This document shows positions 13,591-22,162 of a stretch of 24,819 nt of DNA, piece after piece. The stretch is from positions 1 through 24,819 of IMG/VR virus record IMGVR_UViG_3300025647_000248; one strand, given 5' to 3'. A program made the translations under genes and the position numbers. The number at the start of each line of letters is the position of its first letter. Within the stretch, counting starts at the first letter, position 1. The notes beneath the pieces were generated by a model. The model had not been told where the DNA came from and did not search any database. It worked only from the letters and a program-made list of their open reading frames with translations. The stretch is from a virus.

Positions 13591-13614
13591 AAAGGGGTCC
13601 TAAGTGACCCCTTT
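13591..13614. terminator. Bidirectional intrinsic terminator between the convergent arms
   Basis: AAAGGGGTC (13591-13599), a six-base loop, and GACCCCTTT (13606-13614) form a perfect 9-base stem. On the - strand the stem runs into seven Ts then ATTC, a strong terminator for the replication operon. On the + strand it is followed by AGTTTATTTAG, a weaker U-tract. The stem sits 2 bases after the + arm stop (13588) and 7 bases beyond the RNR stop codon (13622-13624), so it serves both operons and limits antisense read-through. Confidence 0.9.
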
Positions 13615-18943: not shown

Positions 18944-19220
18944 TCTTCATCCTAATATGCTCCAATCTATGACAGTTGGAACAGAGCACTACACACTGGT
19001 CTGCTTCTGCTACCACTTCTGATTTTGCACCTGAGACACCGCGCCATGCCTTGTACTCCAAAGCCATCGTCTTGACCACATCCGCTGGATGGTGGAAATC
19101 AAGAACTGCCTGTGGGTACTTCCTCTTACAGCACGAGCATATAAGCTTGCATCTTCTTAAAAGATAAAGCCCTCTGTTACGGTTCCCAGTTTTGTCCCAC
19201 TCACGGGTCTCAGAACTCAT
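18825..19220 (-). CDS. HNH endonuclease (free-standing, probably homing)
   Basis: A 131-residue protein lying between the primase-helicase and polA. Zinc-site and HNH motifs are Cys28-x2-Cys31, LDFHH with His43/His44, and CSNCH (Cys80, Cys83, His84) followed by His88. This is the architecture of small phage HNH nucleases. The start overlaps the helicase stop. The C-terminal about 40 residues have no family character (SYSGHRDGRAETQEGLGSRN) and lie over the polymerase start in another frame. Insertion beside a polymerase gene is a favourite site for homing nucleases; the enzyme would nick or cut unoccupied relatives. A domesticated role in packaging or repair is less likely. Confidence 0.8.
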   Translation of the reverse strand: MSSETREWDKTGNRNRGLYLLRRCKLICSCCKRKYPQAVLDFHHPADVVKTMALEYKAWRGVSGAKSEVVAEADQCVVLCSNCHRLEHIRMKNEKSYSGHRDGRAETQEGLGSRNQGCGYQRSFDFEEPYP

Positions 19221-20832
19221 CTTCTGCAGATGCCGCCTTGACCTCTGGTGGAACTCCGGTCTCCAATCGACCTGTACCCTGATTATAGTACAACCAGCCA
19301 GCAGGTCCTGTCATGCCAGTCCTCCGGCACTTCACCAGCTGCACGAAGGTACTGTTCTTGGCGTACTCATCCTCTGCCATCTTGTCACGACTCAGTAGAA
19401 TCGTATTGAAGGCGATCTGGTTGATACTGCCTGAACCCTTCAGGTCATACTCAGACACGTTGTGTGGCTGCGAGGCGCTTGGCTTACGCATGTGGGACAC
19501 CACAATGATAGCCACGTTGGTCTCCTTCGCCAGCTTCAAAAGGCGGTCCATAAAGTCATCTATGACCTCGTTGGTGTTGCTGGAGACACCTGCCTGCAGC
19601 GGGTCAATGACTAGGATATTACATCCGTTGCCTTTGACCATGGAACGAAGCTTAATGAACAGCTCATCGGCATCCACGGCACCAAAGTGGTCCAGAAGGT
19701 ATATACGACCATCGGTAATGATGTCGGACTTGTACTTGGATAGATCATGGTCCTCCAGATTCTCAAATGAGAAGTTCAGGTTGTTGTGAATTGTCAACAG
19801 GTTCTTCACTGCTTCGCCTTTGGAAGCCTCGAGGAACGCACAGCCAATGTTCAGGTCGGTGTTCTTCCACAGGTGGTACGTAATCTCGTTCACCATGGTT
19901 GTCTTACCGACACTGGTCAGGGCACCCAACACAGTAATCTCACCCGCTGCGATACCACCGTTCATCATCTGGTTCAATTGACCAAAGGACTCTGGGAAGG
20001 GAATGATCTGCTCCTTACCCATCTTCAGGAAGTCTTCCCAAGCCTCCTCCAGCGTAATCACGCCAGTCATGACATACGCCTTAGCGTTCCACCACTCCTG
20101 CATGAAGGCTTTTGCTTTGCCGTTCTTCAGGTAGTCACAAGGGTCCTTGAACTCCTCTAGGTTGACGATCTTTGCCTTGTTTGGCGATAGGATTTGAGCG
20201 CACTCTTCAGCCGCTGCGCGACCCGGCTCATCCGAATCAAACGCAATGATGACGTTCTCAAATCCTTCAAGCCACTCCAGATTACGTTGGAAGTCCTTTT
20301 TAGCGCCAGCCGCACCTTTAGAGACGCTAACAACAGGCCAACGCGAACCCAGTAGCTCATATGCCGCCATCGCGTCCAACTCGCCTTCAACAACTGTGAC
20401 ATACTTTCCCTCATTACTAAATAATTGTTGACCAAACAGTGTGTTTGACTTCATGTCACCGCTGGTCGTGAACCGCTTGTCACGCAGCACACGGACCTTT
20501 ACGCCACACTGTGCACCCTTCCTGTCGAAGTATGGGTAGTAGTGCTTGATAGCCTCTGATGTGCCAACCTTGAACTCTGATGTCACGCCATACTTCTTGG
20601 CGGTGTCCATAGAAATCTTACGGTCAGCGATACCTGAGACCACCCCATGCTGCTCGAATGAGCGTTGGGTAGGGAAGTCCACTACTTCCGCTTGTTCCCC
20701 TGAAGGAAAATAGCTATTACAGCCAAAACAGTAGCCATGCCCATCGTCGTACCTCGCTAGGTTGTCCTTGGAACCGCACTTGGGGCAAGGCTCATGTTTT
20801 ACGAAATTAGCTTCAGTTTTATAACTTTGCAT
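19210..20832 (-). CDS. Primase-helicase, T7 gp4-like
   Basis: A 540-residue bifunctional replication protein. The zinc-binding domain has Cys16/Cys19 and Cys35/Cys38 (CPKCG ... CFGC). TOPRIM primase motifs are VVEGELD (Glu149, Asp153) and FDSDEPGR (Asp199, Asp201). The C-terminal RecA-like helicase has Walker A GALTSVGKTT (Lys310, Thr311), Walker B ILVIDPLQA (Asp410) and a SHMRK sensor (His447). Length and domain order match T7 gp4 (566 residues). It should synthesise primers for and unwind ahead of the polymerase encoded two genes on. It starts 41 bases after ssb, across a hairpin, with AGGA upstream of ATG 20832, so its level may be set below that of SSB. Confidence 0.93.
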   Translation of the reverse strand: MQSYKTEANFVKHEPCPKCGSKDNLARYDDGHGYCFGCNSYFPSGEQAEVVDFPTQRSFEQHGVVSGIADRKISMDTAKKYGVTSEFKVGTSEAIKHYYPYFDRKGAQCGVKVRVLRDKRFTTSGDMKSNTLFGQQLFSNEGKYVTVVEGELDAMAAYELLGSRWPVVSVSKGAAGAKKDFQRNLEWLEGFENVIIAFDSDEPGRAAAEECAQILSPNKAKIVNLEEFKDPCDYLKNGKAKAFMQEWWNAKAYVMTGVITLEEAWEDFLKMGKEQIIPFPESFGQLNQMMNGGIAAGEITVLGALTSVGKTTMVNEITYHLWKNTDLNIGCAFLEASKGEAVKNLLTIHNNLNFSFENLEDHDLSKYKSDIITDGRIYLLDHFGAVDADELFIKLRSMVKGNGCNILVIDPLQAGVSSNTNEVIDDFMDRLLKLAKETNVAIIVVSHMRKPSASQPHNVSEYDLKGSGSINQIAFNTILLSRDKMAEDEYAKNSTFVQLVKCRRTGMTGPAGWLYYNQGTGRLETGVPPEVKAASAEDEF

Positions 20833-20849
20833 CGTTTTATCCTAAGTTA

Positions 20850-20863
20850 GGGGCCGAAGCCCC
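20850..20863 (-). other. c(UUCG)g hairpin between ssb and the primase-helicase gene
   Basis: On the - strand GGGGC-TTCG-GCCCC forms a 5-base GC-only stem closed by C-G around a UUCG tetraloop, one of the most stable RNA hairpins. No U-tract follows (TAACTTAGG), so it is not a good intrinsic terminator. It more likely blocks 3' exonucleases on ssb mRNA and/or reduces flow into the next gene. Confidence 0.75.
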
Positions 20864-20872
20864 ATTAGACCC

Positions 20873-21247
20873 TTAAAACTCCTCCGCAGTGGTCGCCTGT
20901 TCAGAGAACTCGAGGACTTTGACCGCAGACAGGTATGGTGAGATACCGTGGACAGGGTGTGGTTTACCTGCGGTCCACTTGAGACGGACCTTGGAACCAT
21001 ACTTAAGATCGGATGCGGGGATTTCGTTACCCTCAGGATCGTAGACAGGAACCTGATACTTGGTAGCGAACTTGCGCTGTGCCTTGCCTTGGTACTCCTT
21101 CAGCTTGATTCCCATGTTCTCCAAGGCGACTGCCTCTTCATCGTCCATGGTCAAAGTTAGTGAGTACTTACCTGTGTCTTGACCGTTGTACTTGTCGGTC
21201 TCTGTCAGGTTAACGAAAGCAGCAATGCCATTGGTGTAGTTTGCCAT
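20873..21247 (-). CDS. Single-stranded DNA-binding protein, T7 gp2.5-like
   Basis: A 124-residue protein. An OB-fold-like series of strands is visible: YTNGIAAFVNLTETDKYNG, GKYSLTLTMDDEEA, KYQVPVYDPEGNEIP and YGSKVRLKWTAGK. The C-terminus is acidic and ends in aromatic Phe (TTAEEF), the partner-binding tail typical of gp2.5 and bacterial SSBs. It is the gene directly before the primase-helicase, as expected for this role. It has the strongest ribosome binding site seen on this arm (AGGAGG before ATG 21247) and its own promoter at 21303-21332, so it should be made in large amounts. It is half the size of T7 gp2.5 (232), so it is a compact version. Confidence 0.8.
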   Translation of the reverse strand: MANYTNGIAAFVNLTETDKYNGQDTGKYSLTLTMDDEEAVALENMGIKLKEYQGKAQRKFATKYQVPVYDPEGNEIPASDLKYGSKVRLKWTAGKPHPVHGISPYLSAVKVLEFSEQATTAEEF

Positions 21248-21282
21248 GATTACCTCCTATAAGATCGTGGCTCAGTTGAAAA

Positions 21283-21296
21283 ACGACCGAAGTCGT
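21283..21296 (-). other. 5'-terminal c(UUCG)g hairpin of the ssb transcript
   Basis: On the - strand ACGAC-TTCG-GTCGT makes a 5-base stem with a UUCG tetraloop, followed by TTTTC. The -10 box of the nearest promoter ends at 21303, so transcription should begin at about 21296, the first base of this stem. A stem at the extreme 5' end protects mRNA from 5'-end-dependent decay. For transcripts arriving from the upstream promoter the same stem plus U-run could act as a weak terminator. Both readings are inference. Confidence 0.65.
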
Positions 21297-21302
21297 AGTA
21301 AA

Positions 21303-21332
21303 AGTATATCACAAGTCGGAAGACCTTGTCAA
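21303..21332 (-). promoter_or_regulatory. Sigma70-like promoter for ssb and the replication operon
   Basis: On the - strand TTGACA (21332-21327), an 18-base spacer and TATACT (21308-21303). The -35 lies inside the last codons of the 59-residue basic gene, and the -10 follows its stop directly. Predicted start is near 21296. It lacks the ATAC-N4-GTAT dyad found at the other two promoters. Confidence 0.8.
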
Positions 21333-21488
21333 GACATCCTCTTCAAGTTCTTGAAAGACCTCACCCTTAAGTTTATTCTTAAGTTTACTTCTTTTATACT
21401 CTTTCTTTGGAGAAACTATGTTTTTACTCTTATGTAGTAAATCCATATATTTCTTCATATAGTTTCTTTCCTTAGGTTTATTATACAT
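21309..21488 (-). CDS. Small Lys-rich protein, unknown
   Basis: A 59-residue protein with ATG 21486-21488 and TGA 21309-21311. It begins MYNKPKERNYMKKYMDLLHK and is very basic (about 15 Lys), with an acidic C-terminal patch (EVFQELEEDVL). The ribosome binding site GGAG sits ten bases upstream. It is the first gene after the promoter at 21523-21551, so it should be expressed early and strongly. I do not recognise a family; small basic early phage proteins often bind nucleic acid or host RNA polymerase, but that is only analogy. Its AT content is higher than that of neighbouring genes, which fits either low constraint or a regulatory stretch only partly coding. Confidence 0.55.
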   Translation of the reverse strand: MYNKPKERNYMKKYMDLLHKSKNIVSPKKEYKRSKLKNKLKGEVFQELEEDVLTRSSDL

Positions 21489-21690: not shown

Positions 21691-21745
21691 AAAATACCTC
21701 CAGAAGGCCTCAGAACGGCCTGTGTTGCGTTTTTAGGACCTTGTC

Positions 21746-21763
21746 CATACCTAGGTATACCTA
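21746..21763. promoter_or_regulatory. Overlapping palindromes, third ATAC-N4-GTAT site
   Basis: ATACCTAGGTAT (21747-21758) and TAGGTATACCTA (21752-21763) are two perfect 12-base palindromes that overlap by seven bases, so the site reads as TACCTA-GGTA-TACCTA. On the - strand TATAC-CTAG-GTATG at 21759-21746 is the same dyad class as at the two promoters. I see no sigma70 boxes at the matching distance here. It lies in the 86-base gap (21691-21776) before the zinc-ribbon gene, which also holds an AGGCC-N7-GGCCT stem (21706-21722). Candidate operator. Confidence 0.45.
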
Positions 21764-21776
21764 AGACCTTAAAATG

Positions 21777-22024: not shown

Positions 22025-22162
22025 TCAAAATAACGCCTCCTCTGTCTCTTGGATCAGGTCCTGAAGACGCAACATGGCAGCCTTCCTGACGACCCACTCA
22101 GGTTTTATACCGAAGGGGTTAAAACAACGTCCTGTCCGTGAACAGAACCCGTAGTACTCCAT
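22025..22162 (-). CDS. Very small protein with CFNPFGIKPEW motif, unknown
   Basis: A 45-residue protein, ATG 22160-22162, TGA 22025-22027. It starts MEYYGFCSRTGRCFNPFGIK and continues with a helix (VVRKAAMLRLQDLIQETEEA). Two Cys residues six apart. The ribosome binding site is weak (GTGAAAAGC), but the start lies only five bases after the preceding stop, so coupling could supply initiation. It is too small to assign a role. Its position fills the gap between two better supported early genes, and the codon pattern is coding-like. Confidence 0.5.
   Translation of the reverse strand: MEYYGFCSRTGRCFNPFGIKPEWVVRKAAMLRLQDLIQETEEALF

Follow-up and report, generated by a model that had tools for sequence, protein, structure and literature searches.

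UUCG hairpins on either side of a phage ssb gene: a stem conserved before the primase gene and a lineage-restricted stem at a predicted transcript start

Do two UUCG hairpins that bracket a phage ssb gene form a stability cassette, and could they uncouple the level of single-stranded DNA-binding protein (SSB) from that of the primase-helicase encoded downstream? Both proposals were made in a first-pass annotation of IMG/VR virus record IMGVR_UViG_3300025647_000248, the 24,819 nt of which (positions 1-24,819) are referred to here as the window. We have followed the two hairpins, designated the 5' stem and the 3' stem, through the window and its relatives.

The locus and its two stems

In the window, a 24.8-kb phage fragment, the plus strand carries structural and late-type genes and the minus strand a replication module that encodes thymidylate synthase, SSB, primase-helicase, DNA polymerase, a Cas4-domain exonuclease and ribonucleotide reductase. 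The minus strand reads, in order, P1, a 59-aa ORF, P2, the 5' stem, ssb, the 3' stem and the primase gene (Table 1); ssb and the primase gene are arranged as first annotated. The ssb product matches PHROG 112 with an E value of 5.8e-9, across 39 residues only, and has no Pfam or PDB match. The 59-aa ORF has no Pfam match.

Table 1. Positions of features in the window and, where a contig is named, in relatives
Feature	Position	Strand	Remark
Terminator-like stem	13591-13614		9 bp, A/T runs on both sides
DNA primase/helicase gene	19210-20832	-	540 aa; PHROG 239, E 1.1e-164
AGGA, primase Shine-Dalgarno sequence	20840-20843	-	6 nt 3' of the 3' stem; read from sequence
3' (intercistronic) stem	20850-20863	-	GGGGC-UUCG-GCCCC; no U-tract
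ssb	20873-21247	-	gp2.5-like ssDNA-binding protein, 124 aa
AGGAGG, ssb Shine-Dalgarno sequence	21253-21258	-	read from sequence
5' stem	21283-21296	-	ACGAC-UUCG-GUCGU; at predicted +1 of P2
P2	21303-21332	-	sigma70-like, extended -10, TTGACA-18-TATACT; predicted +1 at 21296
59-aa ORF	21309-21488	-	upstream of ssb; 3' end overlaps P2
P1	21523-21551	-	sigma70-like, TTGACA-17-TACAAT; upstream of 59-aa ORF and ssb
Small CxxC ORF	21690-21530	-	
Noncoding leader	21691-21768	-	roughly 75 nt, before small CxxC ORF
Terminator-like stem	22129-22148	-	between two early ORFs
Extra 59-aa ORF of L018	L018 3116-3295		
AT-rich imperfect stems upstream of ssb	L147 443-582; L156 406-517; L133 979-1082; L164 427-534		distant relatives

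Two c(UUCG)g stems do bracket ssb, as the first-pass annotation had it. Each is a perfect 5-bp helix whose UUCG loop is closed by a C-G pair, and across both strands of the whole window these are the only UUCG loops with at least five Watson-Crick pairs. Dinucleotide shuffles (n = 300) contained a mean of 0.11 such stems and reached two in only 1 of 300, which argues against one reading of the locus that takes both stems for ordinary intergenic structure: the 5' stem would be a product of chance or transient insertion and the 3' stem a relic or passively conserved spacer. The motif CTTCGG alone is enriched in the window (18 copies vs 6.5 expected), and most copies lack a stem of at least 5 bp. 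In the noncoding 5.9% of the window, as defined by the gene list of this analysis, the 3' stem ranks second in predicted strength among perfect stems. The strongest lies between the convergent late and early arms and resembles a bidirectional terminator; a further terminator-like stem was seen farther upstream on the minus strand (Table 1).

The 3' stem folds with a predicted energy of -9.6 kcal/mol and a pairing probability of at least 0.99 in its sequence context. The 5' stem (-5.0 kcal/mol) meets a rival pairing, GGUCGU/ACGAUC, at -5.7 kcal/mol, and its pairing probability ranges from 0.07 to 1.0 depending on the length folded. Length also decides the winner when the 5' stem competes with a longer fold in which the ssb Shine-Dalgarno sequence is covered. 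In the fold of 21296-21247, the CUUC segment otherwise joins this longer stem, and such modeling allows the ssb leader to be pictured as a two-state switch: the 5' UUCG stem would lock away the CUUC segment so that ssb stays translatable, a ligand such as SSB could tip the balance, and the 3' stem would then fix the ssb/primase ratio. We consider this reading highly improbable.

Relatives, promoters and the limited spread of the 5' stem

Two tblastn-confirmed scans of IMG/VR yielded 13 close contigs, in which primase is 85-100% and ssb 81-100% identical, and a large number of more distant contigs. Scans with an ssb alignment, a 59-aa ORF alignment and a leader pattern found no near-clade contigs beyond the 13, and in cellular genomes none of 34 pattern matches was confirmed as a relative. 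The 81 rows examined consist of 14 near-clade rows (the window, L008 and L013-L024) and 67 others. None of the 67 carries a UUCG stem of comparable strength near ssb or primase; three (L044, L045, L052) have one 2.4-3 kb away, and six (L083-L088) begin inside the primase gene, where the presence of the stem cannot be judged. Two of these six, L085 and L087 (primase 85 and 88% identical), accordingly lie outside the stem comparison. Most of the related loci whose primase is 63-70% identical leave no gap for a stem, since ssb overlaps or directly adjoins the primase gene, and the UUCG stem is absent there.

Within the near clade, the UUCG form of the 5' stem is present in five of 14 rows only, the window and the near-identical L013-L016. 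Eight rows (L017, L019-L024 and L008) are without it, and their leader is shorter by about 13 nt or more; L017 keeps P2, yet has no 5' stem. In a ninth row, L018, the stem is replaced by a sequence-unrelated one, GUAGC-AUCCC-GCUAC, whose first base has exactly the position of the first stem base in the window, 7 nt after the -10 element; by background, a stem start is expected at 0.7% of positions. Retention of the 5' stem in close relatives was thus not borne out. Its confinement to one near-identical lineage would suit ordinary intergenic structure, whereas the unrelated stem at the same +1 offset in L018 speaks against it. L018 is basal to the other near-clade rows in both gene trees, and the simplest history suggested by these sequences is that the ancestor had a stem at the P2 start, which two lineages kept and the rest lost; two separate gains are possible. 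As judged by comparison of these rows, the 5' stem is a lineage-restricted stem at a 5' terminus that is itself predicted.

The 5' stem starts exactly on the predicted +1 of P2, and in this respect the proposal that it opens the predicted ssb transcript is upheld. P1 is as good a promoter match as P2, its -35 region TTGACAAGGA is invariant across the 14 rows of alignment A1, and it predicts transcripts starting ~220 nt farther upstream. Both P2 hexamers are kept in the window, L013-L016, L017 and L018; L019 retains the -10 only, and P2 is degraded in L020, L021, L023, L024 and L008. Since P1 is conserved while P2 is degraded in most rows, ssb is probably transcribed from P1 in all near-clade phages and additionally from P2 in some, which does not favor transcription of ssb starting at the 5' stem. 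A phage RNA polymerase, if present, would make these sigma70 promoters doubtful; with the T7 polymerase protein as the query, none was found in nine virus records, mostly fragments, and the T7 control was found (1/1).

Given the predicted P1 transcripts, the 5' stem and its U-run (ACGACUUCGGUCGUUUUUC) might also act as a weak intrinsic terminator directly upstream of ssb in place of a stabilizer. The UUUU directly after the stem fits this reading, as does the same core in L103 and L104, where a longer stem and U-run after a ribonucleotide-reductase gene look terminator-like. We nevertheless consider it rather unlikely: only four U residues follow a 5-bp stem that the terminator scan did not call, the counterpart in L018 has no U-run, and termination at this point would deprive ssb of transcripts from the conserved P1. 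The exact promoter-plus-hairpin pattern was found in six contig stretches of IMG/VR, four from this lineage and two from L103 and L104, which share one stretch of unrelated T4-like DNA. The L103/L104 copy was rejected as an occurrence of the same module elsewhere, as it resembles a terminator.

Other features of the upstream region were observed. The noncoding leader before the small CxxC ORF occurs throughout the near clade (14/14 rows; the L017 copy is cut by the contig end) and is predicted to fold; in some relatives, CCUAAAA/UUUUAGG covers the Shine-Dalgarno site. L013 and L014-L016 are near-identical downstream of about window position 21770 and differ directly upstream of this leader, which resembles a mosaic junction. 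In distant relatives, long AT-rich imperfect stems (CTTAAG/CCTAGG-rich) lie in gaps upstream of ssb and are far stronger than shuffles (Table 1).

Conservation and placement of the 3' stem

None of the 14 near-clade rows lacks the 3' stem, and these rows represent four distinct ssb-primase gap sequences. The 14-nt hairpin is identical in three of the four, with the rest of the gap differing in sequence and length, and ssb third codon positions differ by 44-45% among these three gap types; a hairpin unchanged through such divergence is hard to reconcile with ordinary intergenic structure. In the fourth sequence, that of L018, the stem is GGGAC-UUCG-GUCCC, in which one G-C pair has become A-U through alteration of both sides and one outer pair has been gained. 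The compensatory change called for by the first-pass annotation was therefore seen once, but the count over four sequences was equaled or exceeded in 326 of 500 shuffles, a comparison without power, and this lack of significance is compatible with ordinary structure. Pairing probability in context was 0.99-1.0 in all seven loci tested.

Placement ties the 3' stem to its downstream neighbor. From the end of the stem to the primase AUG is 16-17 nt in 7/7 loci tested, and the distance from the ssb stop to the stem varies from 5 to 11 nt. In L018, the only contig of the near clade with an extra 59-aa ORF (no Pfam match), this ORF starts on the ssb stop codon (TGATG) and the 3' stem comes after the ORF, not after ssb. 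The fixed spacing to the primase AUG and the intervening L018 ORF indicate that the 3' stem belongs to the boundary before primase.

The same spacing makes a role in the primase leader the main rival to a role in ssb mRNA stability. The stem would then set primase translation, as a stable plug immediately before the Shine-Dalgarno sequence; in variants of this reading it would separate primase from terminating ssb ribosomes or mark the edge of the ribosome-binding site. Such a role fits the fixed AUG spacing and the L018 arrangement, in which the stem stays with primase, as well as or better than protection of ssb mRNA does. However, blocking the pairing of the stem in the local fold barely shifts predicted Shine-Dalgarno accessibility (0.395 vs 0.370), and the constant spacing, drawn from four distinct sequences only, is partly just Shine-Dalgarno spacing. 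We regard the primase-leader role as possible but doubtful.

A special association of gap hairpins with ssb found no support. In a sample of 107 de-duplicated gaps (of 331), the nine gaps after ssb, which include three ORF-caller errors in which primase overlaps ssb (L029, L123, L181), were compared with 98 others; the median z was -1.46 vs -0.59 (rank test p = 0.13), and the share of gaps at p of 0.05 or below was 0.22 vs 0.24. In the wider ssb family, unrelated strong stems occupy the post-ssb gaps of L132, L158, L175, L145, L080 and L081, those of L145 and L175 having U-runs like true terminators, and the stems of L067, L089 and L121 are weak. Because similarly strong stems occur in other gaps of the same phages, nothing here is specific to ssb, and these genomes seem to carry hairpins in their gaps quite generally. 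This is a point in favor of ordinary intergenic structure, a reading that we nonetheless judge unlikely overall, given the rarity of two such stems by chance, the unchanged 3' stem and the L018 counterpart of the 5' stem.

Known systems and a tentative explanation

CUUCGG hairpins between genes of T4 and other phages have been known since 1988 (Tuerk et al., cited in PMC8948821), and a stem with a GTTCGG loop is reported upstream of the phage 7-11 sigma gene (PMC8948821). Both stems described here resemble this class in having a c(UUCG)g loop on a short Watson-Crick stem, on the sense strand and in an intergenic gap, where the phage hairpins are predominantly found. They differ from it in their settings, a predicted +1 for one copy and a link to the primase start for the other, and they belong to an unrelated lineage of uncultured phages. 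An Rfam scan of the window gave no matches at E up to 1. Neither stem has the form of an intrinsic terminator, a GC stem followed by a U-run: UAACUUAG follows the 3' stem and only UUUU the 5' stem.

In E. coli, the galE hairpin, with 8 bp and a 4-nt loop, is reported to block exonuclease and to set polarity within its operon (PMC11925234). Like the 3' stem, it is near a cistron boundary and is not an intrinsic terminator; it leaves stable upstream mRNA. The galE hairpin, as described in that source, is mutation-tested and lies about 120 nt past the galE stop, inside the next gene, whereas the 3' stem, a candidate for such a block, has 5 bp and lies in an intergenic gap. At the other end of the message, a hairpin appended to the 5' end reportedly hinders RppH and can stabilize mRNA (PMC3997798). 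The 5' stem resembles the ompA and papA 5'-terminal stem-loops (Emory, Bouvet and Belasco 1992, in PMC3997798) in its predicted position at the very 5' end of an mRNA; unlike them, it has a start site that is only predicted, meets a competing fold and is not conserved clade-wide.

The closest parallel by gene is T4 gene 32 (ssb), the mRNA of which is described as the most stable T4 mRNA (PMC3014915). There too, a strong hairpin comes soon after the ssb stop of a message with reported special stability. The T4 hairpin, however, looks like a true terminator (GGGGACC/GGUCCCC followed by U6), unlike the 3' stem, and gene 32 uses a pseudoknot and RNase E processing. According to PMC8948821, a 5' CUUCGG hairpin stabilizes the gene 32 mRNA. 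In the T4 record (L187), a search of the 747 nt that precede gene 32 found no UUCG stem of at least three pairs, and the only such stem, with A-U/G-U-type closing pairs, is downstream in another gene; gene 32 was therefore rejected as direct precedent for a 5' stem of the CUUCGG kind. T7 gene 2.5 (L186) has no UUCG stem with more than three pairs. The literature search, which left most subscription journals uncovered, found no paper on CUUCGG or UUCG hairpins with phage SSB, intergenic primase or intergenic mRNA stability. The present instance is new, but not the notion that an ssb gene may be flanked by special RNA structure.

The explanation that we favor, tentatively and with slightly less than even confidence, is that the 3' stem marks a conserved mRNA boundary between cistrons and protects the ssb part of the message, and that the 5' stem is a second, optional element. 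After a cut, Rho-dependent termination or decay of the primase part, 3'-to-5' exonucleases entering a polycistronic message from its downstream part would halt at the 3' stem, so that the upstream ssb portion would outlive the primase portion, and the SSB:primase ratio may change as a result. Because the sequence after the 3' stem, TAACTTAG, has no U-tract, the stem is not an intrinsic terminator, and since the terminator scan did not call it either, a decay boundary is favored. The stem-bearing gap also takes the place of the ssb/primase overlap of related lineages, so that primase is translated from its own Shine-Dalgarno site. Where P2 is active, the 5' end of the ssb message would be base-paired, so that decay dependent on that end would be slowed; by analogy with the appended hairpin, this may come about through hindrance of RppH.

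Conservation of the 3' stem in every near-clade row and its identity across diverged ssb genes count for this explanation; its spacing to the primase AUG and the ORF between ssb and stem in L018 count against it. The proposed stability cassette survives in part. A conserved 3' stem without a U-tract is placed to separate the fates of the ssb and primase messages, and a 5' stem does sit at a predicted +1, but the 5' stem is lost in most of the near clade, P1 is better conserved than P2, the 3' stem is spaced to primase and gap hairpins are common.

The locus offers a compact natural test of how an abundant, stoichiometric SSB may be uncoupled from a scarce primase-helicase within one operon and without a terminator. 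Among its relatives are natural variants: the 5' stem is present in some and missing from others, as is P2, and one has an inserted gene.
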